48,030 bases of DNA from an uncultured Lachnospiraceae bacterium (GTDB taxonomy: Bacteria > Bacillota > Clostridia > Lachnospirales > Lachnospiraceae), in NCBI GenBank assembly GCA_902775485.1, contig CACYMJ010000002.1, positions 1 to 48,030 on the forward strand. Direction: 5' to 3'. How positions within the stretch are numbered: the stretch's first letter is position 1; the number at the start of each line of letters is the position of its first letter. The notes under the pieces are model-generated. The model did not search any database. It was given only the letters and a program-made list of their open reading frames with translations, and had not been told where the DNA came from. The translations under genes were made by a program, and so were the position numbers. Below, in pieces: positions 21,001 to 38,644 of the stretch.

Positions 21001-22505
21001 CTGTACTGCTTTGACAGCACTGCAAGCGGAGTATCAACTCCCATCGAGCCGATCTGTTCGGCCCCGGTAAGCGCCATCGTATATATACGCTCGTTGCAGT
21101 CCTCATACGTATATCCGTATGCCCTCTGCAGTCTTTCAAGGCTCTCTCCCCCGATCGAAGGCACTGCTTCGTTCGGTATCTTCAGCTCGGACAGTCTGAC
21201 AAGGTTTGAATCAAGCCATTCACCATACGGCTCCCTCATGGCGTATCTGTCCTTGATCTCACGGTCCGTATATATCTTTCCCGCTTTCGTATCCGCAAGT
21301 ATCATCTTGCCCGGATACAGGCAGCCCTTTTCGGTTATCTTTGATTCATCGATATCAAGTACTCCCACCTCCGAAGACAGGATCAGCCTTCCGTCATCAA
21401 TCACATAGTAGCGCGAAGGGCGCAGTCCGTTCCTGTCAAGGATCGCCGCCATACAGTCGCCGTCCGAGAGCATTATCGATGCGGGGCCGTCCCACGGCTC
21501 CATCATTGTCGCATAGTACTGGTAGAAATCCCTCTCTTCGATCGAGAGCGTGTCATTGTTCTCCCATGGTTCGGGAACAAGGATCATTGCCGCGAGCGCC
21601 GGCTCCATACCGCCCATGATCATAAACTCAAGCGCGTTATCAAGCATTGCCGAATCCGATCCTTCACGTGATATCACGGGAAGTACCTTACTCAGTTCCT
21701 CATCCGTAAAACAGCTCGTCCGGATCGTCTCCTCGCGTGCGACCATCTTGTCAACATTTCCGCGGATCGTATTGATCTCACCGTTATGTACGATGAACCT
21801 GTTGGGATGTGCGCGAAGCCAGCTCGGATTCGTGTTCGTCGAAAATCTGGAATGCACCATCGCCAGCGCCGACTCATAGTCCTTATCGTTAAGATCATCA
21901 AAAAAAGTGCGGAGCTGCCCCACAAGGAACATACCCTTATATACTATCGTTCTGCACGAAAGGGATGCCACGTATGCGGTGTCCGTCGAATGCTCGAACA
22001 CACGTCTTACTACATACAGCTTTCTGTCAAAATCAATATCTTCCTTTGCATCCTTCGGGCGGGCGATAAATGCCTGATATATCGCCGGACATGTGGCAAG
22101 TGCACGGTCTCCGAGAACATCCCTGTTTACCGGTACGCATCTCCATCCGAGAAAATCGAGGCCTTCCTTTTTCGTTATGATCTCAAACATCTTCATGGCC
22201 TGCTTTCTGGCCAGTTCATCCTGCAAAAAGAACAGCATGCCGACACCATAAGACCTTGCGCCCTTAAGTGTTATGCCTTCCTTTTTACATGCCTTAACAA
22301 AAAAAGCATGGGGTATCTGAGTCATTATCCCGACTCCGTCACCGGTCCTGCCGTCGGCATCCCTGCCGGCCCTGTGCTCGAGATTTTCTACAATTGAGAG
22401 CGCATCGCTGACTATATCATGGCTTGCCTTTCCGTATATGTTTATTATCGATCCGACTCCGCAGTTATCATGTTCAAACTGCGGCTCATACAAAGTCTCT
22501 GTCAT
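18054..22505 (-). CDS. gltB: Glutamate synthase large subunit
   Basis: GOGAT alpha subunit, 1483 residues, cytoplasmic. A 14-residue propeptide precedes the Ntn nucleophile Cys15 (NCGVGSI) of the glutaminase domain. The central domain and the FMN-binding synthase domain (from about residue 780, with [13 protein letters not shown] and [10 protein letters not shown]) follow. The 3Fe-4S cysteines C1113, C1119 and C1124 have the standard CX5CX4C spacing. The GXGXG helix domain ends the protein. The start is supported by AAAGGAG 6 nt upstream. It overlaps pyrG by 4 nt (ATGA), an unusual coupling of GOGAT to CTP synthase. Confidence 0.97.
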
Positions 22506-24130
22506 GTGTTACTCCTTTCTTCGGAAATACTCTTTGACCTTTCAAGTGCCGCCTTTATGAGTCCGGCAAAGAGAGGATGCGGCATATCCGGTCTTGACTT
22601 GAATTCCGGATGCGCCTGCGTTGCAACAAAATAAGGATGATCCTTAAGCTCTATCATCTCGACGATCCTGCCGTCGGGTGAGAGCCCCGATAATACCATC
22701 CCGTTCTTTTCCAGTATTTCCCTGTAATCGTTGTTGACTTCATACCTGTGACGGTGGCGTTCGCTGATCCGGTTCGTGCCGTAGAGTCCGAATGTCCTCG
22801 TGCCTTCCGACAGAACGCACGGATACGCGCCAAGCCGGAGCGTACCCCCGATATCCTCGAGGTTTTCCTTCTCCGGCAGTATGTGTATAACAGGATTTTT
22901 TGTGTCCGGCTCAAGTTCGGAAGATGCGGCATCGCTTATACCGCAGACATTTCTGGCAAATTCGACGATCGCAAGCTGCATACCGAGACATATCCCGAGA
23001 TAAGGTATACCGTTTATCCTTGCAAACCGTGCAGCTTCTATCTTGCCGTTTGTTCCCCTGCTTCCGAAGCCTCCCGGAACTATCATGCCGTCAACACCCG
23101 AAAAAACATCACCGGCACCGGCGCGTGTTACATCCTCGGCATCGACAAAGCGCACCTCTACTTCCGTAAGATTTGCTATCCCGCCGTGTTTAAGAGCTTC
23201 TACAACGCTCAGATATGCATCATGAAGCGCAACATATTTTCCCACTATGGCTATGGTCACTTTATTCTGCGGATTTTCAAAATCCTCAGTCAGCTTTCTC
23301 CATGCCTTAAGATCCGGCTCCGGGCAGAGTATCCCGAGACTGTCGCATACCCTCTGGGCAAGATGCTCTTCCTCAAGCATCAGCGGGACCTCGTAAAGCG
23401 ATCTTGCGTCCAGATTCTGAAGAACGTTTTCCTTCCTGACATTGCAGAAAAGAGCGATCTTCTCCCGCATGCTCTCATCGATCGGAAGATCCGATCTGCA
23501 TACGATGACATCCGGCCACAGACCCATGCTCTGCAAGGTCTTGACGCTCATCTGGGTAGGCTTGGTCTTGAGCTCGCCCGAAGCCTTCAAATATGGGATA
23601 AGAGTAACATGTATGATAACGGAATTATTTCTTCCGATATCAACCTGAAATTGCCTTATAGCCTCCAAAAAAGGCTGGCTTTCGATATCACCGACGGTTC
23701 CACCGATCTCTATGATCGAGATCGTGATGTCATCCGAAGGTTTTTCCTTATGAAATCTTGCCTTGATCTCATTCGTTATGTGCGGGATCACCTGAACGGT
23801 GCCTCCGCCGTAGTCTCCGTGGCGTTCCTTATTCAGGACCGTCTGGTAGATCTTTCCCGTTGTAACATTTGAGTTACGATCGAGTGATTCGTTTATGAAC
23901 CTTTCATAATGTCCGAGATCGAGATCCGTCTCGGTACCGTCATCGGTAACGAACACCTCGCCGTGCTGGATCGGGTTCATCGTTCCCGGATCAACGTTTA
24001 TGTACGGATCGAACTTCTGCATGGTGACGCGGTAGCCCCTGGCCTTAAGGAGCCGCCCGAGAGATGCTGCGGTGATCCCTTTTCCAAGCCCCGATACTAC
24101 GCCGCCTGTAACAAAAACATATTTGACCAT
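22502..24130 (-). CDS. pyrG: CTP synthase
   Basis: Makes CTP from UTP, ATP and glutamine. It has 542 residues, a standard length. The N-terminal synthase domain opens with [17 protein letters not shown] and contains the [13 protein letters not shown] segment. The C-terminal class I glutaminase domain has GGFGSRG and the nucleophile Cys in YLGICLGMQ, with the His/Glu pair in AHPEF. It starts 7 bp after asnB and overlaps gltB. Placement inside a nitrogen-assimilation operon puts another glutamine consumer under common control. Confidence 0.97.
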
Positions 24131-24137
24131 ATCCGCC

Positions 24138-25718
24138 TCACTCTCCGCTCGCGCCGTAGTTGGCGAGCACTCTTGCAGACGGATCGTTAACGTTACAGCC
24201 TTCCCATTGTCTGTTGGGCATCCAGAAATCGATTATCATGTGAGCCTGCCCGGGATAAAAACTCTCAAACAGTTCACGGTACAGGAGCGACTCCTTGGTA
24301 AACGGAGTTGCATATGTGTATTTTTTCCGCAGTTTCTCATACTCTGCATCAGAGTATTTTGTTTCGGCATATTCCTTCAGATAGTCGACCATTGAGTGGC
24401 CGACGGCATCGGAAAACGCGGCTTTTTCGCGCATGAGTATGTCTTCGGGAAGATAATCCCCGGCAAATGCATGACGCAGAAGATATTTTCCCTTGTTGTA
24501 TTTATTGAGCTTCATCTCAGGATCTATGCTCATGACATATCTGGCAAAATCAAGATCCCCGAACGGAACCCTTGCCTCAAGCGAATTGACGGATATACAT
24601 CTGTCTGCACGAAGGACATCGTACATATACAGCTCCCGTATGCGCTTTTCGGCCTCTTTCTGAAACTCTGCGGCCGACGGTGCAAAATCGGTATATTTAT
24701 AACCGAACAGTTCGTCAGAGATCTCTCCCGTCAGAATGACCCTGACATCCGTTTTCTCATGTATAGCCTTGCAGCACAGATACATTCCGATGGAAGCCCT
24801 GATCGTCGTGATGTCATATGTTCCGAGAAGGTGCACGACATCCGGAAGGGCCGCCAATACATCATCCTTTGTTATGATCACTTCCGTATGATCCGCGCCG
24901 ATATAATCCGCCACTTCCTTTGCATACTTAAGGTCGATGGCATCGGTACTCATACCTATCGCGAACGTCCTGATCGGTTTTTTCAGTATCCGCGAAGACA
25001 CGGCACATACAAGCGACGAATCAAGTCCGCCCGATAACAGGAAACCTACCGGAGCATCCGCATCCAGTCTCTTCCTTATTCCCTCTACAAGTTTGTCATG
25101 TATGTTCCTGCATACGGTTTCGATATCATCCTTAACGAATGCATCCACCTTTGCCGGATCGGCATAACAGGTGAACTTTCCGTCGGCATAATAGTGTCCG
25201 GGCGGGAACGGATATATCTTTTGAACGAGTCCGACAAGGTTCTTGGCCTCGCTTGCGAACACGATCCCGTCATCAGTCGTAAATCCGTAGAAAAGCGGTC
25301 TGATACCGATCGGATCCCTTGCCGCTATAAGCTGTTTTTTTCCGGCATCATAGATAATGCACGCAAATTCCGCGTCAAGAAGTGCGAACATATCCGTTTT
25401 GTACAGCTCGTACATCGGCAGCAGTATCTCGCAGTCACTGTCGCTTTTGAACGTATACCCTTTTGATATCAGCTCCTCCTTAAGCTTCCTGAAACCGTAG
25501 ATCTCACCGTTGCATACGAGCATGTTTTGTCCGTGTTCAAACGGCTGCATGCCCTCCTCGGTAAGTCCCATTATCGACAGTCTCTCAAAGCCCAGCAGCG
25601 CTCCGTCCGCTTTTGCAAACCTTTGCATGTCCGGGCCCCTTGAGACCGTCCTGTCGAAGAAAGGTTTCAGGTCTTTCTCCGTAAGCTTTCTGCCCAAATA
25701 TCCCATTATTGAGCACAT
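24138..25718 (-). CDS. asnB: Asparagine synthase (glutamine-hydrolysing)
   Basis: Forms asparagine from aspartate, ATP and glutamine. It has 526 residues. The nucleophile Cys2 follows directly after Met (MCSIMGYLG), as in the Ntn glutaminase family. The glutaminase domain spans about 1-190. The synthetase domain has the PP-loop SGGLDSSL near residues 230-237 and the [11 protein letters not shown] segment. GGAGG lies about 10 nt before the start. It is 84 bp downstream of the Amt-PII gene and 7 bp before pyrG. Confidence 0.96.
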
Positions 25719-25802: not shown

Positions 25803-27557
25803 TTACTCGACGTCCTGAAGCGCGTCGAAGTCTTCTTCTCCGGTCCTGATCTTTACGACCTTCTCGACAGGATATACAAATATCTTTCCGTCTCCGATGT
25901 GGCCTGTGTACAACGTCTTCTTGGCCGCATCTATAACCGCCTGTACAGGTATCTTTGAAACAACGACCTCGACCTTGACCTTGGGCAGGAGCGTTGCATC
26001 GACCTCAACTCCACGGTATCTCTCGCCGGCCCCCTTCTGGATGCCACATCCCATAACCTGGGTTACAGTCATTCCGGTAACACCCAGATCGTTCATTGCC
26101 TTACGAAGTGCATCATATCTTGACAGCCTTGCAATGATAACGACCTTGCTGATGCCCGTATCCGGGAATGCGTTTACAACCTTGACGGCCGCATCCTTCT
26201 TCGCCTCGCTCGCACTCTCGTATTCATCGGATCCGAGGCTTGTGTTCTCGTTCACATCCATCATCATGGTGTTGGCAACATCCATGATCGCAAATCCGGC
26301 ATATGCGCTTGTCAGTCCGTGCTCGGTAGCATCAAGACCGGTGATCTCCTCTTCCTCTGATACACGAAGTCCGTTGATCTTTTTGATAAGTGTGTAGGTT
26401 ATGATGATCGTAACAACTGTCCATCCGATCGTAACGAGCATACCGCCGAGCTGTTTACCAAACTGGTATAATCCGCCGCCGTAGAACAGGCCTTCTCTTA
26501 TTCCGGCAAGAGCAAATCCCGGAGCCGTATCGGTTGCAAACAGGCCGACTGCAAGTGTTCCCCATATTCCGTTAAACATATGTACCGCAACGGCACCGAC
26601 CGGATCGTCAACGTGTATAACGTTATCGCAGAACCATACACCGAACACTACGAGAAGACCGGCAACGGCACCTATTATCGCCGACCCCGTACAGTCCGTT
26701 ACATCACAGGGAGCCGTGATCGCAACAAGACCTGCAAGGGATGCGTTCAAGCACATCGACACATCGGGTTTGCCGTATTTGATCCATGTGAAGATCATGC
26801 ACACAACAGTTGCAACCGCGGGAGCGACCGTTGTTGTTAAGAATACCGATCCGAGAGTCGGAACATCGGTTGCGGCCGCGCCGTTGAATCCGTACCATCC
26901 GAGCCAGAGGATGAATACGCCGAGAGCTGCTATGACAAGGTTATGTCCGGGGAAAGCATTTACTTTTGTTACCTTTCCGTCCTTGTCCTTAACGAACTTT
27001 CCGATACGGGGACCGAGCATCCATGCACCGATCAGGGCACATATACCGCCGACCATGTGAATACAGTTTGAACCCGCATAATCGTGGAATCCCCACTGTG
27101 CCAGGAATCCTCCTCCCCATGTCCAGTGTGCCTCTATCGGGTATATAAGGGCCGAAATGACTGCCGAGTATATGCAGTATGATGAAAACTTGGTCCTCTC
27201 AGCCATGGACCCGGACACGATCGTTGCGGTCGTCGCACAGAATACCAGGTTGAATACGAATCCCGAATAATCAAATCCGCCGTAATTTGTCAGAACATCG
27301 AATGAGAACTTTCCGGCAAAACCTCCGAGCATGTTCTCACCGAGCATCAGAGAAGCACCGCAGATGAACCACATGACCGTACCTATACAGAAGTCCATAA
27401 GGTTCTTCATTATGATGTTTCCCGAGTTTTTTGCCCTGGTAAAGCCCGCTTCACACATTGCAAAACCGGCCTGCATCCAGAACACGAGTGCTGCGCCTAT
27501 CAAAAACCAGACGCCGTAGACCTCACTGTTTATAGCTTCCAGAATTTCTTTTGTCAT
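25803..27557 (-). CDS. amt: Ammonium transporter fused to a PII (GlnK) domain
   Basis: Membrane ammonium channel with its own PII regulator attached, 584 residues. The Amt part (about 1-400) has eleven expected helices and the twin histidines His167 (CIHMVGG) and His326 (VHMFNG). A linker of about 70 residues leads to a PII domain (about 470-584). The domain retains the T-loop with Tyr514 (GERYRG), the site uridylylated in many PII proteins, and the signature TGHIGDGKIFVYPV. Normally GlnK is a separate trimer that plugs Amt; the fusion would tether it. GAGGAG precedes the start. It follows glnN by 115 bp, which holds a palindrome and a family hairpin. Confidence 0.93.
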   Translation of the reverse strand: MTKEILEAINSEVYGVWFLIGAALVFWMQAGFAMCEAGFTRAKNSGNIIMKNLMDFCIGTVMWFICGASLMLGENMLGGFAGKFSFDVLTNYGGFDYSGFVFNLVFCATTATIVSGSMAERTKFSSYCIYSAVISALIYPIEAHWTWGGGFLAQWGFHDYAGSNCIHMVGGICALIGAWMLGPRIGKFVKDKDGKVTKVNAFPGHNLVIAALGVFILWLGWYGFNGAAATDVPTLGSVFLTTTVAPAVATVVCMIFTWIKYGKPDVSMCLNASLAGLVAITAPCDVTDCTGSAIIGAVAGLLVVFGVWFCDNVIHVDDPVGAVAVHMFNGIWGTLAVGLFATDTAPGFALAGIREGLFYGGGLYQFGKQLGGMLVTIGWTVVTIIITYTLIKKINGLRVSEEEEITGLDATEHGLTSAYAGFAIMDVANTMMMDVNENTSLGSDEYESASEAKKDAAVKVVNAFPDTGISKVVIIARLSRYDALRKAMNDLGVTGMTVTQVMGCGIQKGAGERYRGVEVDATLLPKVKVEVVVSKIPVQAVIDAAKKTLYTGHIGDGKIFVYPVEKVVKIRTGEEDFDALQDVE

Positions 27558-27610
27558 AATCTCATCTCCTCATTTTGTGTATCCGGACCCGTTTGACCCG
27601 GTATACCAAG

Positions 27611-27642
27611 AAAGGCACCCTTCCCGCAGGAAGAGCGCCTTT
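27611..27642 (-). promoter_or_regulatory. Nitrogen-leader hairpin before amt (family member 1)
   Basis: On the minus strand AAAGGCGCTCTTCC pairs over 14 positions with GGAAGGGTGCCTTT through G-U pairs, with loop TGCG. It is preceded by GAGC, giving the shared GCAAAGGCGC start. No T tract follows. A perfect palindrome GGGGATATCCCC lies at 27654-27665, between glnN and the hairpin. Confidence 0.75.
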
Positions 27643-27672
27643 GCTCAGTTTATGGGGATATCCCCCGGTTAT

Positions 27673-29772
27673 TTAAACGTAGAACAGTATCTGCTCGTAT
27701 GTCGGATAAGGAAGATATCCTTCGGGGATCAGGGGCTCCGCCTGATCGGCCCACTCTCTGACCTTACCCATATCGTCGACTATCACGTCATGATAGAACT
27801 TCGCCTGGTCTATATCTTCCGGCATGCCCTCCGCCTTCTTTGTATCCGCATCGAGCTTTTCTGCCGCCTTTATCACTTCTTCATACAGGCCGGCAAGCTT
27901 TTCGATTAGCTGCTTTTGTGATGATACCGCTGCATCGATACCGGCTTCCTTCTTGGAGATCACCGATGCCGTAAGATCATCAATGTAATCCATAAGAGCG
28001 GGTGCAAACTGTTTGCGGATCATATCAAGCAGTGTAAGAGCCTCGATATGTATCGTCTTGGTGTAATTCTCGATCCTGATCTCATATCTTGACTGCATCT
28101 CGGTCTCCGAATAGATATGATGTTTGATGAACATCCTCTTATTCTTTTCGGCGATCAGTGCGGGCATTGCATCGGGTGTGGATCTCAGATTATACAGGCC
28201 CCTCTTTTCGGCTTCCGCTACCCATTCATCCGTATATCCGTTTCCGTTGAATATGACTCTCTTATGCGCCACTATCGTCTCTTTAACAAGAGCATGCACC
28301 GCTTCATCCATCTTCTCTTTCGGAACATCCTTAAGCTTCTCATAAAAGAGGCTTAAGGATTCGGCAACCGCGGTGTTGAGCATGATGTTCGGTCCCGCTA
28401 TCGAAAGTGAAGATCCGAGCGATCTGAACTCGAACTTGTTACCGGTAAATGCAAACGGTGACGTACGGTTCCTGTCGGTCGTGTCCTTCGCAAAATGCGG
28501 AAGAACCTTTGCCCCGGTCTCTATCGTTACCTTCTCGGCATTGCTGAAGTACTCATCCTTCTCGATCGCCTCTATAACGGCATTTAACTCATCGCCGAGG
28601 AACATCGATATGATCGCCGGAGGCGCCTCATTTGCTCCGAGTCTGTGATCGTTTCCTGCACTTGCGACCGACAGTCTTAAAAGATCCGCATAATCGTCAA
28701 CTGCCTGAATGACCGCTGACAGGAACAGCAGGAACTGCGTATTCTCGCCCGGGGTCTTGCCGGGATTTAACAGGTTTTCGCCCGTATTGGTCGTAAGCGA
28801 CCAGTTGTTGTGCTTACCCGAACCGTTGATTCCGGCAAAAGGTTTTTCATGCAGAAGGCACGCATAACCGTGCTTTTCGGCCACCCTCTTCATTATCTCC
28901 ATTGTCAGCTGGTTGTGATCGACCGCAACGTTTGTCGTGTCAAACACGGGAGCCAGTTCGTGCTGGCACGGAGCCACTTCGTTATGCTTCGTCTTTGCGG
29001 GGATGCCGAGTTTCCACAGTTCCTCGTCAAGATCATGCATAAATGCCGCTACTCTTGTACGCAGGTTTCCGAAGTAATGATCGTCCATCTCCTGTCCCTT
29101 TGGTGCCGGGGCTCCGAGAAGCGTCCTGCCTGTAAATATCAGATCCTTTCTCTTTTTGTAATCCTCAAGATCGATGAGGAAGTATTCCTGCTCCGGTCCG
29201 ACTGTTGTCAGGACATTTGTGACATCATCCTTGCCGAGGAGCTTTAATACCTTGACTGCTTCGTGGCTGATCGCATCCATCGAGCGAAGGAGCGGTGTCT
29301 TTTTATCAAGTGCCTCTCCGCTGTATGAGCAGAACGCTGTCGGAATATAAAGTGTTCCGTCCTTAATGAACGCGGGGCTTGTCGGATCCCATGCGGTATA
29401 TCCTCTTGCCTCGAACGTTGCCCGGATGCCTCCCGAAGGAAAACTTGACGCATCCGGCTCGCCCTTTACGAGTTCCTTTCCGGAGAAGTCCATGATCACT
29501 TCGCCTTTATCTACCGGGCATATGAAGCTGTCATGTTTTTCCGCCGTGTATCCGGTCATGGGCTGGAACCAGTGAGTGAAATGCGTTGCCCCGTTCTCTA
29601 CGGCCCACTCCTTCATTGCAACCGCAACGGCATTTGCTACATCAAGTTCCAGGTGTGTATTATTGTCTATGGTCTTCCTCAGTGCTTTGTACATGTCCTT
29701 GGGAAGCTTGTCTCTCATGATCTTGTCGGTAAACACATTCTTACCGAATAACTCAGGGATGTTTTTGTCCAT
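27673..29772 (-). CDS. glnN: Glutamine synthetase type III
   Basis: ATP-dependent ammonia assimilation into glutamine. From the chosen start it has 699 residues, the size of GSIII (GS I is about 450). The opening MDKNIPELFGKNVF, the HFTHWFQPMTG block, PEQEYFLID, GSGKHNNWS and the NDHRLGANEAPP motif mark the class. Start at 29772 is fixed by AAGGAGG 8 nt upstream; 22 extra in-frame codons upstream run through a leader hairpin and are not used. A strong promoter lies in the 3' end of lysR and two leader hairpins precede the gene. It is first of the glnN-amt-asnB-pyrG-gltB-gltD series. Confidence 0.96.
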   Translation of the reverse strand: MDKNIPELFGKNVFTDKIMRDKLPKDMYKALRKTIDNNTHLELDVANAVAVAMKEWAVENGATHFTHWFQPMTGYTAEKHDSFICPVDKGEVIMDFSGKELVKGEPDASSFPSGGIRATFEARGYTAWDPTSPAFIKDGTLYIPTAFCSYSGEALDKKTPLLRSMDAISHEAVKVLKLLGKDDVTNVLTTVGPEQEYFLIDLEDYKKRKDLIFTGRTLLGAPAPKGQEMDDHYFGNLRTRVAAFMHDLDEELWKLGIPAKTKHNEVAPCQHELAPVFDTTNVAVDHNQLTMEIMKRVAEKHGYACLLHEKPFAGINGSGKHNNWSLTTNTGENLLNPGKTPGENTQFLLFLSAVIQAVDDYADLLRLSVASAGNDHRLGANEAPPAIISMFLGDELNAVIEAIEKDEYFSNAEKVTIETGAKVLPHFAKDTTDRNRTSPFAFTGNKFEFRSLGSSLSIAGPNIMLNTAVAESLSLFYEKLKDVPKEKMDEAVHALVKETIVAHKRVIFNGNGYTDEWVAEAEKRGLYNLRSTPDAMPALIAEKNKRMFIKHHIYSETEMQSRYEIRIENYTKTIHIEALTLLDMIRKQFAPALMDYIDDLTASVISKKEAGIDAAVSSQKQLIEKLAGLYEEVIKAAEKLDADTKKAEGMPEDIDQAKFYHDVIVDDMGKVREWADQAEPLIPEGYLPYPTYEQILFYV

Positions 29773-29815
29773 AACTGTCTCCTCCTTTTTTTGAGCTTTA
29801 AGATCCCGTAATGCA

Positions 29816-29857
29816 AAAGGCGCATCCACCGTGTGCACGAACGGTTAATGCGCCTTT
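29816..29857 (-). promoter_or_regulatory. Nitrogen-leader hairpin before glnN (family member 2)
   Basis: On the minus strand AAAGGCGCAT pairs perfectly with ATGCGCCTTT. After a 2-nt mismatch, ACCG pairs with CGGT around a 10-nt loop. The flanking base context gives the common GCAAAGGCGC. TTTGCATT follows. Confidence 0.75.
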
Positions 29858-29875
29858 GCATTCAGAAAACAAAAG

Positions 29876-29903
29876 AGGCACTTCGGTCGAAACCAAAGCG
29901 CCT
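29876..29903 (-). promoter_or_regulatory. Nitrogen-leader hairpin before glnN (family member 3)
   Basis: On the minus strand AGGCGCTTTGGT pairs over 12 positions with ACCGAAGTGCCT, loop TTCG, followed by CTTTTGTTTT, a terminator-like tail. The common GCAAAGGCGC begins it, about 10 nt after the predicted transcription start. Confidence 0.75.
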
Positions 29904-29922
29904 TTGCTCTTTATGTTCAAAA

Positions 29923-29951
29923 AATATATACCTGTTACGCTTTGCTGTCAA
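29923..29951 (-). promoter_or_regulatory. glnN promoter
   Basis: Minus-strand TTGACA (29946-29951), 17-bp spacer, TATATT (29923-29928). The -35 box and part of the spacer lie inside the last codons of lysR. The predicted start near 29916 leaves a leader of about 140 nt that holds both hairpins. Confidence 0.75.
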
Positions 29952-30828
29952 TACCCTTTTTTGTAAATTCGATAAATTTATCCGCAACGGGTGATAGCGG
30001 ATGGTTGTCGGGGTATATCAGAACATAGCTTGCCATATGAACGGGATGGGTTATCTTTTTTATCAGGACATTCTCGCCATGTATCAGATCGCCCGCTGCG
30101 GCAGGATAGATCGCAACCCCCACATTCTGCTCGCACAGTTCATATGCGATCGTTGCATTTGAAATGCGTGCCTTTATCCTCGGAGTGATACCAAGCGGTG
30201 AAAACCAGTCGCTGATCTCCTGCAGCCTCGAACCCCTTGAAGGAATGATCAGATCCTGATCGGCAAGCATCTCAAGCTTAACGGTATCACCCTTTATCTT
30301 CGCCATCGGATGTTCGGATGAGAACATCGCTATCCACGGTTCCTTGTATATGACCTCGCTGTGCAGTCCCGCCGGATCATAAGGCTCCATTATTATGGCC
30401 AGATCCGCCAGGCCGTTTCTGACTCTCTGTGTTACCTCATCGGAGTTACCGTTCCAAATGCTGTACTGCACAAGCGGATAATGCTTCGAAAATGCCGAGA
30501 TGTACGATGCCGTAAGACGGGGAGCCTTACCCTCAACCTCCGCTATATATACGGTTCCGCGAAGGCCCGTGTGCATCTCCCTTATATCCTCTACCGAACG
30601 GTCCGCAAGTGCGACTATACGGTTTGCATACGATCTGAACCTTATACCTTCCTCGGTAAGTCTGAGATTATGATGTTCACGTATGAAAAGCGCCGTTCCG
30701 ACCTCTTCCTCAAGATCCCGTATCTGCCGGCTTAAGGGAGGCTGTGCTATCATAAGCTTTTCGGCGGCTTTTGTAATGTTCATTTCATCGCATACAGCGA
30801 GAAAATACCGAAGGTGTCGCAGTTCCAT
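29935..30828 (-). CDS. LysR-family transcriptional regulator
   Basis: DNA-binding regulator of 297 residues. The N-terminal winged helix-turn-helix (MELRHLRYFLAVCDEMN, then KAAEKLMIAQPPLSRQI) is textbook LysR, and a two-lobe periplasmic-binding-type effector domain follows. GGAGGAGAAGG precedes the start. It lies 30 bp after carB and directly upstream of the glnN promoter. B. subtilis GltC, a LysR protein, controls gltAB, so regulation of this nitrogen block is a reasonable guess, but the effector domain shows no special GltC likeness that I can recognise. Confidence 0.9.
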   Translation of the reverse strand: MELRHLRYFLAVCDEMNITKAAEKLMIAQPPLSRQIRDLEEEVGTALFIREHHNLRLTEEGIRFRSYANRIVALADRSVEDIREMHTGLRGTVYIAEVEGKAPRLTASYISAFSKHYPLVQYSIWNGNSDEVTQRVRNGLADLAIIMEPYDPAGLHSEVIYKEPWIAMFSSEHPMAKIKGDTVKLEMLADQDLIIPSRGSRLQEISDWFSPLGITPRIKARISNATIAYELCEQNVGVAIYPAAAGDLIHGENVLIKKITHPVHMASYVLIYPDNHPLSPVADKFIEFTKKGIDSKA

Positions 30829-30858
30829 TTACCTTCTCCTCCTGTACCTATTTTACCA

Positions 30859-33800
30859 TCAAAAGATCGTTGATACACGTATTGTCTGCTCCTCGAGAAC
30901 ATCAAGAAGAACACGTACCGTATCGAGCGATGTGAATATCGTAACATTGTTCTCTATCGCGCACCTGCGGATCGCCGCACCGTCCACATAGTGTACGCCC
31001 GACAGAACGGCCCTGCTGTTTATGACATACGCAACATTTCCCGATCTTATGGCATCAAGTATCTCTTCGCTGCCCTCGGACAGTTTCTTCCTGATACGCG
31101 TCTTAACGCCGTAATTGTTCAGGTATTCGCCTGTCAGGCTCGTTGCCTCGATATTAAATCCCATATCGTAAAACCGCTTGATAAGCGGCATTCCCTCAAG
31201 TTTGTCCTCATCCGCGAGTGACACGATAACGGTACCGTAATTTTTCAGTTTTATGCCCGATGCCACAAGTGCTTTATACATCGCGCGATGAAGCTTGTCA
31301 TCATAACCGATCGCTTCGCCTGTTGATTTCATCTCCGGAGACAGGTACGAGTCCATACCCTTGAGCTTGGAAAACGAGAATGCAGGAACCTTGACGCACC
31401 AGCGTTTCCTCTCCTCGGGATAGATCGTAAATATCCCCTGCTCTTTAAGCGTCGTTCCGAGTATGCATTTCGTTGCGATATCCGCAAGGGAATATCCGGT
31501 CGCTTTTGACAGGAACGGAACGGTTCTCGACGACCTCGGATTGACCTCGATTATATAGACCTTCTCCTCGTCATCGACGATGAACTGGATATTGAACAGT
31601 CCCGTTATCCCTATCCCCACGCCGAGCTTTTTCGTATATTCGAGTATCGTTCCCTTGACCTTATCCGAAAGCGAAAACGGGGGATATACGCTTATCGAGT
31701 CTCCGGAATGAACGCCGGTACGCTCGACAAGTTCCATGATGCCGGGTACGAAAACGTCCACTCCGTCGCAGACGGCATCAACTTCTACCTCTTTACCTTT
31801 TATGTATTTGTCGACGAGAACGGGCTTGTCTTCATCGATCTCTACCGCGTTTTTCAGATAATGTCTCATCTCTTCTTCCTTGGACACTATCTGCATGGCT
31901 CTTCCTCCAAGCACAAAGCTCGGCCGTACAAGTACGGGATATCCGATCCCGGCTGCCGCAGCTACTCCGTCCTCGACATTTGTAACGGCAACCCCTTGTG
32001 GCTGCGGAATGGAAAGCTTGCCCAGAACCTTTTCAAACGCGTCCCTGTTTTCGGCACGTTCTATCGCTTCACAACCGGTACCGATTATCTTCACCCCGTA
32101 TTCGAGGAGAGGTTCGGCAAGGTTGATCGCGGTCTGTCCGCCGAGTATGGCGATCACGCCCTCCGGTTTTTCCATTTCGATTATATTGACAACATCCTCT
32201 GTACAAAGCGGCTCAAAATACAGCTTGTCGCTCGTTGTGTAATCTGTTGAAACGGTTTCGGGATTATTGTTGATTATTATCGCCTCAAAGCCCATCTCTT
32301 TGATCGTTTTGACCGCATGTACCGTCGAATAGTCAAACTCGACCCCCTGGCCAATACGTATGGGGCCCGATCCGAGAACGATGATCTTCCTGTTGCCTGT
32401 GATCTTCGATTCATTCTCCTGTTCATACGTCGAATAGAAATACGGAACATATGATTCGAATTCCGAAGCGCACGTATCGATCATCTTATATACGGGCATG
32501 ATCCCGTTCGCTTTTCTCATGTCGAAGATCTCATGTGCACTTTTACCCCACAACACTCCTATCTGTCTGTCGGAAAATCCCATGCGTTTTGCCTCACAGA
32601 GGATGCCGGCATCATCACGCCTGGCGGTAAGCTTTCTTTCCATTTCGATGATATTTGCAAAAACATTCAGGAAAAACCGGTCGATCCCGGTCCTGGCGAA
32701 TATATCATCAACGGGCACGTCAAGTCTTAACAGCTGCGCTATCGCATATATCCTGTCATCGCGTCCCGTGCCTATATACTCCATAAGCTCTTCGACGCTG
32801 CTGTTATCAAACTTATCGATGTGGAGATGGAACGCCCCTACTTCAAGGCTCCTGACGGCCTTAAGAAGGCTCTCCTCAAGCGTTCGTCCGACGCTCATGA
32901 CCTCTCCGGTCGCCTTCATCTGAGTACCGAGACTGTTGTTTGCATCGGAAAACTTGTCAAACGGGAATCGCGGCATCTTGGTCACGACATAGTCCATCGA
33001 CGGCTCAAACGAAGCTGCCGTATTGGCAAGCCCGATCTCTTCAAGATACATGCCGACCGCAATCTTTGCGCTGACCCTTGCTATCGGATAACCGCTTGCT
33101 TTGGATGCGAGCGCCGATGATCTTGAGACTCTCGGATTGACCTCGATAAGATAATAGTCAAACGAATCCGGATCGAGCGCAAACTGTACGTTGCACCCTC
33201 CTTCTATCTTCAGTGCACGGATTATCTTAAGAGCCGAACTTCTCAGCATCTGATAGTCCTTGTTGGTCAGTGTCTGCGACGGACATACGACTATGGAATC
33301 CCCTGTATGTATCCCGACCGGATCGATGTTTTCCATGTTGCATATCGTGATCGCCGTATCGTTTGCATCCCTTATGACCTCGTACTCGATCTCCTTGTAT
33401 CCCTTTACGCTCTTTTCCACAAGGACCTGTCCCACGGGGGAAAGCGCGAGTGCGTTTTTCATTATCTGCCTGAACTCATCCTCGTTATCGGCAAATCCGC
33501 CGCCTGTTCCGCCAAGCGTAAACGCAGGACGAAGGACAAGGGGATATCCTATCTTTGCTGCGGCCTCAAGTCCCTCCTCCATGGACTGGGCGATCATCGA
33601 CGGAAGAACGGGCTCCCCTATACTTTCACACAGTTCCTTGAACCGTTCCCTGTCCTCGGCCATCTCGATGCTGTCCGTACCTGTTCCGAGGAGCGTGGCG
33701 GAGCATTCTTCAAGCACTCCCTTTTTCTCAAGTGCCATCGCAAGATTCAATCCGGTCTGTCCTCCGATACCGGCAAGTATCGCGTCCGGCCGCTCCATGC

Positions 33801-34035
33801 GTATGATCTTTGCCACGAACTCAAGCGTCAGCGGTTCCATGTAAACCTTGTCCGCTATAACTTCGTCGGTCATTATGGTGGCGGGATTGGAATTGCACAG
33901 GACGACTTCATATCCTTCCTCGCGAAGCGCCAGACACGCCTGTGTCCCCGCATAATCAAATTCTGCCGCCTGTCCTATGACTATAGGCCCCGAGCCTATG
34001 ACAAGTATCTTCTTAATGTCCTCTCTCTTAGGCAT
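30859..34035 (-). CDS. carB: Carbamoyl-phosphate synthase large subunit
   Basis: Makes carbamoyl phosphate from bicarbonate, ATP and ammonia delivered by CarA. It has 1058 residues, near the usual 1070. Two homologous ATP-grasp halves begin with [17 protein letters not shown] (about residue 14) and [17 protein letters not shown] (about 555). The C-terminal MGS-like allosteric domain occupies roughly the last 130 residues. It starts 3 bp after carA. It serves both arginine and pyrimidine synthesis; no arg or pyr pathway genes other than pyrG are nearby, so nitrogen status is the shared theme. Confidence 0.97.
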
Positions 34036-34038
34036 TTC

Positions 34039-35130
34039 CTACCTCCGTCCGATGATCTCAAAAAATCTGTCAAAAAGATATGCGCTGTCACACGGGCCGG
34101 GCGCGCTTTCCGGGTGATACTGTACCGAGAACAGATCATCCCTTTCGCACTCAACGCCTTCGATCGTGTTATCGAGCAGATTTATATGAGTTACGCTAAG
34201 ATCCGTATCCCCGATACTTTCGGGAACCACGGCATATGAATGGTTCTGCGAGGTTATCTCTATCTTTCCGGTCTTTATGTTTTTAACCGGATGGTTTCCT
34301 CCGCGGTGTCCGAACTTCAGCTTGTATGTTGTGGCTCCGTAAGCAAGACTTATCATCTGGTGTCCTAAGCATATGCCGAATATCGGGATCCTGCCCTTAA
34401 GATTTCTTATCGTCTCTATCGTAGGAACACAGTCCTCGGGATTTCCGGGACCGTTTGATATGAACACTCCGGCTGTGTCGTATTTCATTATTGTCTCGTG
34501 ATCCGTATCCCACGGGAACACGACAAGAGGATACCCGCTTTTTGCAAGCATCTTCAGAATATTGCCCTTGATCCCGCAGTCTATTACGGCTATGCACTTA
34601 TGCTTACCGGGATCCTCTCCGGGGATCGTGTATATGCTTTTAGTCGATGCCCTCTTTACCTGATCGGTTGCCGGCACCGTTTTTTTCAGTCTTTCAAGTG
34701 CTTCGTCATCATCGGTCTCCGATGATGTTATAAGTGCCCTCATGCTTCCCATGGTGCGGATATGCCTTGTCAGCATCCTCGTATCGACTCCCGCGATGCC
34801 GGTGATGCCGTGGGCTTTCATCGTATTTTCAAGCGTATCCTCACACCTGAAATTCGAGGGGCTGTTGCAGTGATTTCTTACGATGAGTCCCGATATGCCG
34901 AACACTTCCGATTCAAAATCATCGGAACATATACCGTAATTTCCTATGAGCGGATATGTCATTACCACTGCCTGATCGGTATATGACGGATCGGATATGA
35001 TCTCCTGATATCCGGCCATCGAAGTATTGAAAACAAGCTCCACCATTTTCTCATCGCTGCTTCCGAATCCGGATCCCCTGTAAACGCTTCCGTCTTCAAG
35101 GACCAGCTTTCTGTCGAATCGATCTTCCAT
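34039..35130 (-). CDS. carA: Carbamoyl-phosphate synthase small subunit
   Basis: Glutaminase subunit that channels ammonia to CarB, 363 residues. The N-terminal CPSase_sm domain (RKLVLEDGSVYRG, FNTSMAGYQEIISDPSY) is followed by a class I glutaminase with the nucleophile Cys in FGICLGHQ and the catalytic pair in QYHPESAPGP. It follows purF by 30 bp and precedes carB by 3 bp, so it is in the same transcript. Confidence 0.97.
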   Translation of the reverse strand: MEDRFDRKLVLEDGSVYRGSGFGSSDEKMVELVFNTSMAGYQEIISDPSYTDQAVVMTYPLIGNYGICSDDFESEVFGISGLIVRNHCNSPSNFRCEDTLENTMKAHGITGIAGVDTRMLTRHIRTMGSMRALITSSETDDDEALERLKKTVPATDQVKRASTKSIYTIPGEDPGKHKCIAVIDCGIKGNILKMLAKSGYPLVVFPWDTDHETIMKYDTAGVFISNGPGNPEDCVPTIETIRNLKGRIPIFGICLGHQMISLAYGATTYKLKFGHRGGNHPVKNIKTGKIEITSQNHSYAVVPESIGDTDLSVTHINLLDNTIEGVECERDDLFSVQYHPESAPGPCDSAYLFDRFFEIIGRR

Positions 35131-35160
35131 GTTCTCTCTCCCATCAAATGCGCATATCTC

Positions 35161-36540
35161 TTAATCCTTCACGGGATACTCTCCGTCAAAGCATGCCTTG
35201 CAAAGAGGCAGGTGACGTGTCATCTCATCAAGGTCATCTATGCTCAGATACTCAAGCGAATCGGCTCCGATACGCTGCCGGATCTCCTCCGTTGTCATAG
35301 CGTTTGCAATGAGCTGCGAATTGTCCGGAACATCTGTACCGTAGTAACACGGGTACAAAAAAGGAGGAGATGAAATGCGGACGTGGACTTCAAGTGCCCC
35401 GAACTTTTTCATCTCCTTTATAAGGTTTGCAAGAGTCGTGCCGCGAACGATCGAGTCATCTATCAGCACAACACGTTTACCCCTGACAACATCTTCTATG
35501 ACGCGCAGTTTGATCATGACCGCACTCGTCCGCTCTTCCTGCGTCGGTTTTATAAAAGTCCTCCCGACATAACTGCTCCTGGCGAACGCATTTTTAAACG
35601 GAATGTTGGACTGTTCGGCATACCCTGCCGCTGCGGTAAGGCCCGAGTCGGGAACACCCGTCACCACATCCGCACTGACGGGAAATCTCCTTGCGAGGGA
35701 TCTTCCGCCTTCCATTCGTGCCTGATATACGCTCAGTCCGTCTATCCTCGAATCAAGACGTGCAAAGTATATATATTCAAATACGCAGTGAGCCTCTTTT
35801 TCAACACTGTTTATCCGTTTTGAAGTGATCCCTTCCCCGGTGATTAGGACCATTTCCCCGGGAGATACATCCCTTACATAATCGGCTCCGATCGCATGAA
35901 GTGCGGTACTTTCAGACGCGCACACGTATTTATCACCGGTCTTTCCGAGACACAGCGGTTTTAATCCCCATGGGTCACGGATACATATGAGCTTTTTGGG
36001 ACTTAGGATAAGAAGTGCATATCCGCCCTTAAGCATCCGGGCAACATTTTCCGCTGCCTCTTCGATCGAAGATGTATGCATCCGCTCTTCGGCTATCTTA
36101 TAGGCGATCACCTCGGAATCGGCATTTCCCGAAAATACGGCACCCTCCGCTTCAAGTTCAGCCCTGATGCGGTCAATGTTTATTATGTTTCCGTTGTGCG
36201 CAAGAGCGACAGTGCCTTTTGCGTAGTTTATGAACACCGGCTGCGCGTTCTCTTTTGTACTGCCTCCCGCTGTTGAATACCTGACGTGGCCTATTCCGAT
36301 ATTTCCCTTCAGTCTTTCAAGAACATCATTGCAAAACACCTCGCTCACAAGCCCCATATCCTTATGAGCGCTGATATTGCCTATCGGACCGCACGTATCG
36401 CAAACAGCCATACCCGCGCTTTCCTGGCCCCTGTGCTGCAGGGCGGTCAGGCCGTAGTAAATGTATCTCGATACATTTACGCTGTCCGGGCAGTATATCC
36501 CGAACACCCCGCATTCCTCGTGAATTCTCTCATCCGTCAT
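35161..36540 (-). CDS. purF: Amidophosphoribosyltransferase (first step of purine synthesis)
   Basis: Transfers glutamine ammonia to PRPP. From the chosen ATG it has 459 residues, with a nine-residue propeptide before the Ntn nucleophile Cys10 (EECGVFG), close to the short propeptide of B. subtilis PurF. The PRPP loop is VVLIDDSIVRGTT. Four cysteines match the Fe-S type: one in HCVFEYIYFARLDS, one in PPFLYPCYYG and two in CKACFDGEYP. Start at 36540 is preferred because GGTGG/GGAAG lies upstream; a GTG at 36555 would have no ribosome site. It heads the purF-carA-carB-lysR series and is separated from other pur genes, which are absent here. Confidence 0.96.
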   Translation of the reverse strand: MTDERIHEECGVFGIYCPDSVNVSRYIYYGLTALQHRGQESAGMAVCDTCGPIGNISAHKDMGLVSEVFCNDVLERLKGNIGIGHVRYSTAGGSTKENAQPVFINYAKGTVALAHNGNIINIDRIRAELEAEGAVFSGNADSEVIAYKIAEERMHTSSIEEAAENVARMLKGGYALLILSPKKLICIRDPWGLKPLCLGKTGDKYVCASESTALHAIGADYVRDVSPGEMVLITGEGITSKRINSVEKEAHCVFEYIYFARLDSRIDGLSVYQARMEGGRSLARRFPVSADVVTGVPDSGLTAAAGYAEQSNIPFKNAFARSSYVGRTFIKPTQEERTSAVMIKLRVIEDVVRGKRVVLIDDSIVRGTTLANLIKEMKKFGALEVHVRISSPPFLYPCYYGTDVPDNSQLIANAMTTEEIRQRIGADSLEYLSIDDLDEMTRHLPLCKACFDGEYPVKD

Positions 36541-36577
36541 GATCTTATCTTCCACCGGTCAACAAGTGCAAAAAAAG

Positions 36578-36605
36578 AGACGCCCCGGTCATTACCGAAG
36601 CGCCT
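36578..36605 (-). terminator. Leader terminator hairpin before purF (family member 4)
   Basis: On the minus strand AGGCGCTTCGGT pairs over 12 positions with ACCGGGGCGTCT (G-U pairs included), loop AATG, followed by CTCTTTTTTT. It shares the GCAAAGGCGC start. It could end the GH31 transcript, but a promoter lies between GH31 and the hairpin, so it is also a leader terminator for purF. Confidence 0.8.
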
Positions 36606-36622
36606 TTGCTTTCCTCAGACAG

Positions 36623-36649
36623 TTTATACCACCTTTATATCGTTGTCAA
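36623..36649 (-). promoter_or_regulatory. Probable purF promoter
   Basis: Minus-strand TTGACA (36644-36649) and TATAAA (36623-36628) with a short 15-bp spacer, and TG one base before the -10 (extended -10). TAAACT at a 17-bp spacing is the alternative -10. The predicted start is only about 10-15 nt before the hairpin. Confidence 0.6.
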
Positions 36650-36664
36650 ATATGATCATACCGC

Positions 36665-38644
36665 CTAGGAGCAGATCTCAAATACAGGGATAACTCCAAG
36701 CGGGGCATCGGCACATATCGTGCACCCTCCGTCATATATGCCCCCGTCATTTTGTTCCTTCCACCGCACGCCCGAAGGCAGATATACGCTTCTTGATACG
36801 GCCCCGGCCGAAAGGATCGGAGCCACAAGATATCTGTCTCCGAACATATACTCATCCTCGATCTCCCAGGCCATAGGATCATCCGGGAATTCATAGAACA
36901 GCGTTCTCATTACCGGCGTTCCGTTTTCATGGGCCTGCCGCATCAGTCCTCTGATATAATCCCTCATGGATTCACGGATCGAAATGTACTTTTTGCAGAT
37001 TTCAAACACTTCCTCGCCGTAGCTCCAGATCTCATTTGCCGCTCCGGAACAGCACCCGGCACCGCCTGTTGTTCCAAGCTGAGGCTGCCTGGGCTCGCGG
37101 TCTCCGTGAAGCCTCATGACCGGACAGTACGTTCCCCATTCAAACCATCTGACAAACAGTTCACGAAATGCCGGATCATCGGGATTACCTCCGTGAAATC
37201 CGCCGATGTCCGTAGTCCACCAGCTTATCCCCGCAAGTCCCATATTAAGTCCCGCAACGAGCTGGTTTCTCATGCTTTCAAAACTGGATGCGATATCACC
37301 CGACCAGACAAGCGCTCCGTATTTCTGGCTTCCGGCCCATGCACACCTTACCAGATTGACGATGTCTTCCTGTCCCTGATCTTTCATTCCTTCATAAAAA
37401 GCCCTGGCATAATCGGAAGGATATATGTTTCCGATCATCAGATCAGTCCCGAGATGATACCGGTAGTTGTCAAAATCATATGCCGAATACTCCGGTTCGG
37501 CCTCATCCAGCCAGAATATCCTGACACCGAGATCGTAATAGTTCTGTTTTACCGTCTCCCACAGATATTTTCTCGCCTCGGGATTTGTAACATCCAGATG
37601 TATGGTTGAGCCCTGAAAATCGAGTCCGACCCTGAAGCCTCTTTCCGTACGGACAAGATAGCCCATCTCCAGCATATGCTCATAGTTCTCGCTTTCGCGG
37701 TCTACAGTCGGCCATATGGAGACCATAAGCTTTATGCCCATGGATTCCAGTTCTTCTATCATTGACTTGGGATCGGGCCAGTATACCGGATCGAACTTCC
37801 ACTCTCCCTGCCTGGGCCAGTGAAAAAAATCAACAACTATGACATCGAGCGGGATACCGAGCTCATGGTATTTTTCGGCCACATCCATCAGTTCATCCTG
37901 AGTGCGGTAACGAAGCTTGCACTGCCAGAATCCGAGTCCGTACTCCGGCATCATCGGCACGGTTCCGGTCACTTTCGCATATGAACTCTCTATCTGTGCC
38001 GGATTGTCGCCTGCAACGACCCAGTAGTCCATAGCCTTTGTACTGTATGCTTCAAAGGAGGTGATGTTTTTTCCGAAAACGCATCTTCCTATCGCGGGAT
38101 TGTTCCATAAAATGCCGTATCCGAGTGAAGATATCGCAAACGGAACACTCGCCTGCGAATTCCTGTGGGCCAGTTCAAGATCCGTTCCCTTAAGATCAAG
38201 ATATTTCTGCTGATACTGTCCCATACCGTATATCTTCTCATCGGGATCTAATGACTCAAACCGAACGGTAAGATGATAATCTCCGCCGATGCACGGCTTG
38301 AACTGTCTGGCCTCGATCTCTATGGCGCTGCAGAGCGGGTCCGTGACATCCCTGCGGTTTCTTGCATACTCTTCAAGAAGCTTCTTTCCGTCCCTGTTAT
38401 ATATAGTTATCTTCCCGGCATTTGACAGTCTGAGGGTGATGTTTCCGTTTTCAAGCGAAGCACCGTCAGCATCACAATGCACAGTCCCGGAAGGAGACTG
38501 CGGGATCGTCAGGGCCCAGTCATCATCCGGCATTTCGGCACATTTTGTTGCGCGTATCCTTACGGCTCCCTCTCCCCACGATTCTATCCACAGTATTTCA
38601 GAATCATACCGGAAGATCAGCCTGGTACCTTGAGCAGTTATCAT
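36665..38644 (-). CDS. GH31 family glycosidase, alpha-xylosidase-like
   Basis: Intracellular glycoside hydrolase, 659 residues, no signal peptide. It has an N-terminal galactose-mutarotase-like beta domain and a (beta/alpha)8 barrel. The GH31 nucleophile is Asp380 in FWLDEAEPEYS and the acid/base is Asp450 in WSGDIASSF, followed by GLAGISWWTTDIGGFHGG. The WLDEAEPE form resembles alpha-xylosidase-type GH31 enzymes more than alpha-glucosidases, but specificity is a guess. GGAGGAGAGG precedes the start. It is 16 bp after the GH127 gene, in the same operon as the binding protein. Confidence 0.88.
   Translation of the reverse strand: MITAQGTRLIFRYDSEILWIESWGEGAVRIRATKCAEMPDDDWALTIPQSPSGTVHCDADGASLENGNITLRLSNAGKITIYNRDGKKLLEEYARNRRDVTDPLCSAIEIEARQFKPCIGGDYHLTVRFESLDPDEKIYGMGQYQQKYLDLKGTDLELAHRNSQASVPFAISSLGYGILWNNPAIGRCVFGKNITSFEAYSTKAMDYWVVAGDNPAQIESSYAKVTGTVPMMPEYGLGFWQCKLRYRTQDELMDVAEKYHELGIPLDVIVVDFFHWPRQGEWKFDPVYWPDPKSMIEELESMGIKLMVSIWPTVDRESENYEHMLEMGYLVRTERGFRVGLDFQGSTIHLDVTNPEARKYLWETVKQNYYDLGVRIFWLDEAEPEYSAYDFDNYRYHLGTDLMIGNIYPSDYARAFYEGMKDQGQEDIVNLVRCAWAGSQKYGALVWSGDIASSFESMRNQLVAGLNMGLAGISWWTTDIGGFHGGNPDDPAFRELFVRWFEWGTYCPVMRLHGDREPRQPQLGTTGGAGCCSGAANEIWSYGEEVFEICKKYISIRESMRDYIRGLMRQAHENGTPVMRTLFYEFPDDPMAWEIEDEYMFGDRYLVAPILSAGAVSRSVYLPSGVRWKEQNDGGIYDGGCTICADAPLGVIPVFEICS

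Follow-up and report, generated by a model that had tools for sequence, protein, structure and literature searches.

The window analysed here is a 48,030-nucleotide (nt) stretch of DNA from an uncultured Lachnospiraceae bacterium, on the minus strand of which four hairpins stand in front of purF, glnN (two hairpins) and amt. We consider it highly probable that each of these hairpins is a transcription attenuator read by an ANTAR protein, with two mutually exclusive folds and a single hexaloop, acting on genes of nitrogen assimilation. We computed both helices and their overlap, a preference for A and G at loop positions 1 and 4 (A1/G4) in counts blind to the letters, the absence of an upstream first hexaloop (P1), the company of nitrogen genes, and the co-occurrence with an ANTAR gene. 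A first-pass annotation of the window had proposed attenuation of the nitrogen genes, which is still the best explanation, but it overlooked the A1/G4 hexaloop and took the hairpins for an undescribed RNA family, where we find P1-less relatives of the described ANTAR target RNAs. The kind of switch is thus already known, and its one-loop architecture seems to be new.

Two overlapping folds in the window

The decamer GCAAAGGCGC occurs exactly four times on the minus strand of the window (27635-27644, 29850-29859, 29898-29907 and 36600-36609), once before purF, twice before glnN and once before amt, against 0.08 occurrences expected; none of 100 dinucleotide shuffles reached four copies, and with one mismatch allowed there were 10 matches against 2.34 expected. 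The four hairpins had originally been drawn as starting with this repeated sequence; the hairpins and their 3' arms were confirmed, but they begin inside the decamer, by two bases (amt and second glnN) or four (first glnN and purF). At all four sites the pattern NNC[AAAGGC]GNN forms a small hairpin of at least three pairs with a six-base loop carrying A1 and G4, and this hexaloop hairpin overlaps the 5' arm of an intrinsic terminator. Because both folds use the same 5'-arm bases, they are mutually exclusive. Folding energies of −2.3 to −5.2 kcal/mol for the hexaloop hairpin and −18.7 to −27.0 kcal/mol for the terminator are as expected if the hexaloop hairpin prevails only with the help of a protein. 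The earlier suggestion that the 5' arm is read by a protein or by an alternative RNA pairing is probably right on both counts, as the alternative hairpin carries a known protein-recognition loop.

Before purF, a predicted sigma70-type promoter (TTGACA-17-TAAACT, 36621..36649) is followed 10 nt downstream by the stem of the hexaloop hairpin AGC[AAAGGC]GCT (36599..36610, loop 36607-36602), which has its bases in common with the 5' arm of a 12-pair terminator with a tetraloop and a T tail (36578..36605), recovered by the terminator scan, by folding and among the model hits described below. Before glnN, a promoter of the same type (TTGACA-17-TATATT, 29923..29951) precedes a first hexaloop hairpin, again AGC[AAAGGC]GCT (29897..29908, loop 29905-29900), that lies 14 nt past the −10 box, and a terminator of 12 pairs with a UUCG loop and a T tail (29876..29903; fold and scan). 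The second glnN hexaloop hairpin, TGC[AAAGGC]GCA (29849..29860, loop 29857-29852), has its outer pair altered on both sides relative to the first and lies within a terminator-like hairpin (29812..29860; fold). The amt hexaloop hairpin, AGC[AAAGGC]GCT (27634..27645, loop 27642-27637), overlaps a terminator-like hairpin in the glnN-amt gap (27611..27642; fold, and a hit of model R1 at E 5.6e-4) that has a weak T tail and no matching promoter, and that would govern read-through inside the operon. All of these features are on the minus strand. When positions 27500-36800 were scanned, the best two promoter matches (11 and 10 of 12) directly preceded the first glnN and purF hairpins, and the longest terminators were those same two hairpins, in agreement with the original remark that two members have T runs and follow strong promoters; the second glnN and amt hairpins fold, yet the terminator scan listed neither. 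The tandem attenuators before glnN (29812-29908, minus strand) recur as the same pair in the nearest relative (L014), and loci L022, L028 and L029 likewise show a second unit there.

Over the whole genome (2.33 Mb) the bare decamer was mildly enriched, with 9 matches against 6 for the reversed control; five of the nine are leaders and four lie within reading frames. It was rejected as the motif on this count and on the altered stems of the glnA and purA leaders, which keep loop A1 and G4 and change the stem to GAC/GTC and GGC/GCC. The invariance reported for the 5' arm therefore holds for the exact matches and fails genome-wide. The loose pattern GCAANGNNGC alone gave no discrimination (264 matches against 296 for the control).

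Conservation of the leaders among relatives

A search with the glnN protein yielded the best 80 of at least 592 loci, mostly from Lachnospiraceae; locus L033, with 2 nt of upstream sequence only, was dropped, leaving 79 leaders. Many of the relatives are metagenome-assembled, and kinship inflates the counts. The composite of hexaloop and terminator was present in 53/79 leaders by our first script, and a sigma70-type promoter was assigned in 61, the remaining 18 being without one by the pattern used. When the best six-base-loop hairpin 10-20 nt past the −10 box was chosen without regard to its letters, the loop read A1..G4 in 52 of the 61 leaders; among the exceptions, L041 and L045 have an A1/G4 hairpin further downstream, and L059, L063, L072, L077, L081 and L086 have none. 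Similarly, hairpins whose loop contains the beginning of a terminator, counted on both strands of the 80 loci, carried A1/G4 in 55/59 cases before glnN and in 49/75 elsewhere. Of 103 A1/G4 composites (100 distinct), 97 close the loop with C-G. At the second pair, G-C was seen 78 times and A-U 20 times, and all four Watson-Crick forms occurred at the third (pairing was required by the script, variety was not); the letters besides 1 and 4 vary, giving 20 different loop hexamers.

Covariation was assessed in two alignments, from both of which the second glnN hairpin was left out. The first (A2, 43 leaders) combined four leaders of our own genome with 39 of 53 distinct leaders of relatives, the remainder being dropped as redundant or irregular. 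Its terminator had 96.1% of cells paired, a score matched in 0/500 shuffles, and both sides had changed in 10 of its 13 pairs. In the second (A5, 42 leaders, including glnA and purA), 20 cells changed on both sides against 5.0 in shuffles; three hexaloop pairs did so, which is not above shuffles (335/500 reach it). Among the loci retrieved by two search models, R1 (terminator pairs only, with a letter profile that still favours hexaloop stems) and the looser R2, 57/58 form a three-pair hexaloop stem, L200 being the exception; each locus entered this check once (58 of 75 matches), and all 58 carry A1 and G4, so it does not probe the loop letters. The fourth stem pair was A-U in 33 of these loci and C-G in 17, a form absent at that place from A2 and from the rows on which R1 was trained.

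For both loop position 4 and the closing G, the terminator partner in A2 was C in 36 leaders and U in the other 7, and neither showed a double change, in contrast to the partners of loop positions 3, 5 and 6. The rows had been picked for G4, so the missing double change is partly built in at that position, but not at the closing G. A protein that fixes A1 and G4 on the hexaloop fold would account for an invariant 5' arm with wobbling 3' partners.

Absence of the first hexaloop

The hexaloop stem begins 7-17 nt past the −10 box in 52 of 54 leaders (chosen for A1/G4 from the 61 with a promoter), most commonly at 11 nt. Transcription starts usually 6-8 nt after the −10 box. A stem about 11 nt past the box leaves only a few bases before the hairpin, and P1, which needs at least 12, has no room; the lack of P1 would thus follow from the position of the hexaloop hairpin, right at the RNA's 5' end as predicted from the promoter. 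A scan for an upstream A1/G4 hexaloop with a linker of 0-25 nt and a Watson-Crick stem, confined to hexaloops, found candidates at 2/103 sites against 3.9 in shuffles, or 10/103 against 8.7 with G-U pairs allowed. As a positive control, the same approach at five eut loci of the class recovered P1 in 2/2 strict composites (linkers 10 and 11; a small sample), and a relaxed scan recovered it in 3/6 eut composites against 2/141 at glnN loci. The dual-hexaloop ANTAR leaders seen at these eut loci lie at 14796 and 10202 in L231 (genome G338) and at 9066 in L233 (G203). The glnN-type leaders, by comparison, do not appear to be dual.

A competing explanation is that these are classical dual-hexaloop targets whose P1 was overlooked, either through a start further upstream or an irregular P1 loop. 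EutV leaders consist of P1 and P2 joined by a linker of 5-12 nt, and deletion of P1 abolishes EutV induction (PMC3369931); PMC8164766 likewise treats ANTAR targets as dual. In Actinobacteria the linker of dual-hexaloop targets is 2-25 nt. A short GGGGATATCCCC hairpin lies upstream in the amt leader as well, but without A1/G4 in its loop. Against an overlooked P1 stand the promoter pattern that occupies its place in 61/79 glnN leaders, the short distance from the −10 box, and candidates no commoner than in shuffles from a scan that does detect P1 at eut loci; we regard it as unlikely. In PMC8934654, the binding unit is redefined as one hexaloop while antitermination still requires both; the same text allows that single hexaloop sites may exist and notes that Mycobacterium stem-loops are not always of the dual form. 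We found no description of P1-less ANTAR attenuators in the titles and abstract openings of the leading open-literature matches on ANTAR and NitR.

The ANTAR protein and its co-occurrence with the leaders

A search of the genome returned one ANTAR gene (PF03861, 59.2 bits against a cut-off of 27.3; 178 residues), located directly behind a gene for a type I-like glutamine synthetase (glnA) and before an aminotransferase gene. We name the ANTAR protein encoded behind glnA NitR. The glnA gene is present in 29 of 30 ANTAR loci of relatives, the thirtieth being cut by a contig end. In Clostridium saccharobutylicum, too, an ANTAR gene adjoining glutamine synthetase, nitR, lies behind glnA. The AlphaFold2 model of NitR (28-row alignment; mean predicted local distance difference test score 90.7, predicted template modeling score 0.67) consists of a receiver-like domain, a long helix and a helical bundle, and its top Foldseek hits were Rv1626 and EutV with RNA; by Pfam, AlphaFold2 and Foldseek together, NitR has the ANTAR domain and the EutV/Rv1626 fold. 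With EutV residues mapped through an alignment with an inferred numbering offset of 2, and hence approximately, the RNA-contact positions Lys149 and Glu160 are kept in 28/28 NitR-type proteins and Lys147 in 7/28, our own NitR included. At own residue 151 in the protein alignment (A4), equivalent to EutV Tyr164, 24/28 GlnA-linked ANTAR proteins have His, with an invariant Tyr two residues on; this His is perhaps related to the one-loop reading. At the end of strand 3, the place expected from the model for the phospho-acceptor Asp, the residue is Cys in 23, Ser in 3, Thr in 1 and Gly in 1 of the 28 proteins. NitR therefore appears to lack the phospho-acceptor of an EutV-type receiver and is probably not switched by a kinase; the neighbouring GlnA would be the obvious candidate partner.

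The family sample comprised 150 genomes, 131 with an ANTAR gene and 19 without. At E ≤ 0.01, R1 had hits in 92 genomes, 90/131 ANTAR-positive and 2/19 ANTAR-negative; at E ≤ 1e-3 the counts were 65/131 and 0/19 (Fisher 8e-6, uncorrected for kinship), and in 26 of those 65 genomes a hit lay within 30 kb of the ANTAR gene. A NitR profile matched 4 of 11 ANTAR-negative genomes with model hits, mainly in the receiver part, and the two matches that were opened were discarded as OmpR-like and CheY-like proteins.

Because occurrence tracks the ANTAR gene, these counts speak against control without a protein, whether by a trans-acting small RNA pairing with the 5' arm or by a glutamine riboswitch. An invariant 5' arm could indeed serve a base-pairing partner, and known glutamine riboswitches precede nitrogen genes. 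However, the loop takes 20 hexamers among 103 sites (though a partner RNA could covary), the RNA before the terminator is probably too short for a ligand pocket, and no Rfam family passed the gathering threshold in the window besides two tRNAs elsewhere, with chance-level matches only in 27560-29960. Protein-free control is accordingly improbable.

Putative regulon in the genome and its relatives

Seven sites were identified in our own genome: those of purF, glnN (two) and amt, one before gdhA (contig C44), one before purA (C4:59305, GGC[AAAGGG]GCC) and one before the glnA-ANTAR operon (C4:49096, GAC[AAAGGC]GTC, E 0.0065). Three further R2 hits were not counted: C4:57910 (E 0.018), where a weak hexaloop can be drawn but no promoter was seen and a histidine-kinase-like frame follows, and C9:66312 and C26:42828, which are without an A1/G4 hexaloop. 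The covariance-model search that the first-pass annotation had recommended gave best hits that mostly precede nitrogen and glutamine genes. Among 32 downstream proteins scanned (3 from our own genome and 29 from best hits in relatives), 18 were type III glutamine synthetases (GSIII), 4 Amt, 2 PurF and 2 GltB, with one each of AsnB, CarA, GdhA and PurA; a histidine kinase (behind the uncounted C4:57910) and an FAD oxidoreductase (L124) do not fit. These proportions favour glnN, as the model was trained mainly on glnN leaders and only the best hit per genome was opened. In the class-level search, 28 of the 29 loci opened (L189-L217) had an A1/G4 hexaloop by script; at L210 the script chose a chance hairpin where the model places AGC[AATGGT]GCT.

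Proposed mechanism and known systems

In the mechanism we propose, a leader left alone would fold into the intrinsic terminator, and transcription would end after about 45 nt. Alternatively, the leading bases of the terminator's 5' arm could pair into a small hairpin, NNC[A1 N N G4 N N]GNN, to which NitR, the single ANTAR protein found, most likely binds through A1 and G4, holding the hairpin and preventing termination. NitR would in this way jointly switch on glnN, amt-PII, purF-carAB, gdhA, purA and its own glnA operon. The transcription start, NitR binding, antitermination and the nitrogen or glutamine signal with its direction are the steps that we infer.

Several observations weigh against this attenuator reading. 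P1 is needed in EutV (PMC3369931), so a single loop might not suffice, and the hexaloop-stem figures in A2 (97.7% paired, 3/4 pairs changed on both sides) are inflated because the rows were picked by a script that required A1/G4 and the stem. The composite was absent from 26/79 glnN leaders in the first scan, L030 has A at loop position 4, and 14 of 20 glnA-ANTAR operons had no composite before glnA by script. In the family sample 41/131 ANTAR-positive genomes had no R1 hit at E ≤ 0.01; in the class sample (196 genomes) R2 had hits at E ≤ 1e-3 in 57/100 ANTAR-positive but also in 9/96 ANTAR-negative genomes, counts that are loose since R2 also scores palindromic or plain terminators on both strands. 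One genome (G188, 96% complete) has a full AGC[AAAGGC]GCT leader before a GSIII-like frame (L211, G188:C37:3662-3715), and no ANTAR gene was found in it, the NitR profile search included; the contig may be missing, the protein may have been lost, or the exception may be genuine. Our own genome is 84% complete. At the protein level, the positions of EutV Arg142, Lys143 and Lys147 are variable among the 28 proteins, and the Tyr164 that stacks on G4 in EutV is a Tyr only in our own NitR. Finally, purF, purA and carAB are not obvious low-nitrogen genes, which disfavours a simple low-nitrogen scheme.

ANTAR antitermination proteins are described as acting on an A1/G4 hexaloop that overlaps a terminator (PMC3369931 and PMC8934654). 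The closest counterparts in those papers are EutV and the eutP, eutG, eutS and eutA leaders of Enterococcus faecalis, which have in common with the window leaders the A1/G4 hexaloop on the terminator's 5' arm, an ANTAR protein and an antitermination logic that is predicted here. They differ in needing both P1 and P2, where the window leaders have the P2 equivalent only, at the predicted 5' end, and in that EutV is phosphorylated by a kinase, where NitR mostly has Cys at the expected phospho-Asp place (23/28). The leaders of AmiR (amiE) and NasR (nasF) (PMC3369936) are likewise nitrogen-related cases of ANTAR antitermination, and AmiR receives its signal via a partner protein; unlike the window leaders, they include a P1, on which antitermination is stated to depend. 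In 2012, nitrogen regulons under ANTAR control were predicted, for instance in Desulfotomaculum (PMC3369931), with similar genes (PII, ammonium transporters, glutamine and glutamate synthases), but with a dual-hairpin model that would pass over P1-less leaders.

Two further explanations have very little probability. Terminated leader RNAs might act as decoys that bind up the ANTAR protein, a role already suggested for EutX and EutV; PMC8934654 proposes single hexaloops for sequestration, and terminated leaders could be abundant, but in a terminated RNA the stronger terminator takes up the hexaloop stem and leaves little loop, and a decoy role would be compatible with the attenuator reading rather than exclusive of it. 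Ordinary constitutive terminators sharing sequence by chance, or a scattered repeat, would suit the textbook form of two of the four hairpins and the 4/9 decamers within coding sequence, but without regulation a strong terminator placed ahead of a gene and behind its promoter would presumably be costly, and neither loop letters nor a second helix would be needed, yet A1/G4 is favoured in the letter-blind counts.

More speculatively, P1-less, 5'-terminal ANTAR attenuators might control nitrogen assimilation throughout the class. Their reader would be an unphosphorylated ANTAR protein whose activity is set by GlnA, with feedback-inhibited GlnA reporting glutamine, and search models that required two hexaloops would have overlooked the attenuators until now; we put this forward as a possibility that is rather doubtful at present. 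In the published view, termination is overcome only when an ANTAR dimer engages two hexaloops one after the other. The leaders described here, found in dozens of species mainly from gut and rumen, resemble natural one-loop cases near the transcription start and would offer a direct test of that two-hexaloop model, as well as a candidate for a master switch over nitrogen assimilation in Lachnospiraceae and related gut bacteria.

Genes and probable operons behind the hairpins

Gene assignments rest on open reading frames and, where stated, Pfam; the names carA, carB and pyrG are tentative assignments from the sequences. All genes are on the minus strand. The purF gene (35161..36555, amidophosphoribosyltransferase by Pfam and reading frame, with a likely ATG at 36540) is followed by carA (34039-35130), carB (30859-34035) and a lysR-type gene (29935-30828; also by Pfam), and the close spacing suggests that these four (29935..36555) are probably one operon. 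A probable second operon, again by close gene spacing, consists of glnN (27673..29772, type III glutamine synthetase; Pfam GSIII_N), amt (25803..27557; Pfam), asnB (24138-25718; also by Pfam), pyrG (22502-24130) and gltB (18054-22505; also by Pfam). With two such closely spaced operons, the 18.0-36.6 kb portion of the window would form one attenuator-controlled block. In the amt product the transporter continues into a C-terminal PII (GlnB) domain, a fusion that might couple transport to nitrogen sensing.

In five Butyrivibrio loci (L062, L064, L067, L073 and L074) no attenuator was found directly before glnN; GAC[AARGGC]GTC composites lie 1.8-3.9 kb upstream on the same strand, so control may act there on a longer operon. 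At the class level, sites L198, L202, L204 and L214 precede a reading frame starting MSK..P.GY.., which we take to be AsnA (aspartate-ammonia ligase).

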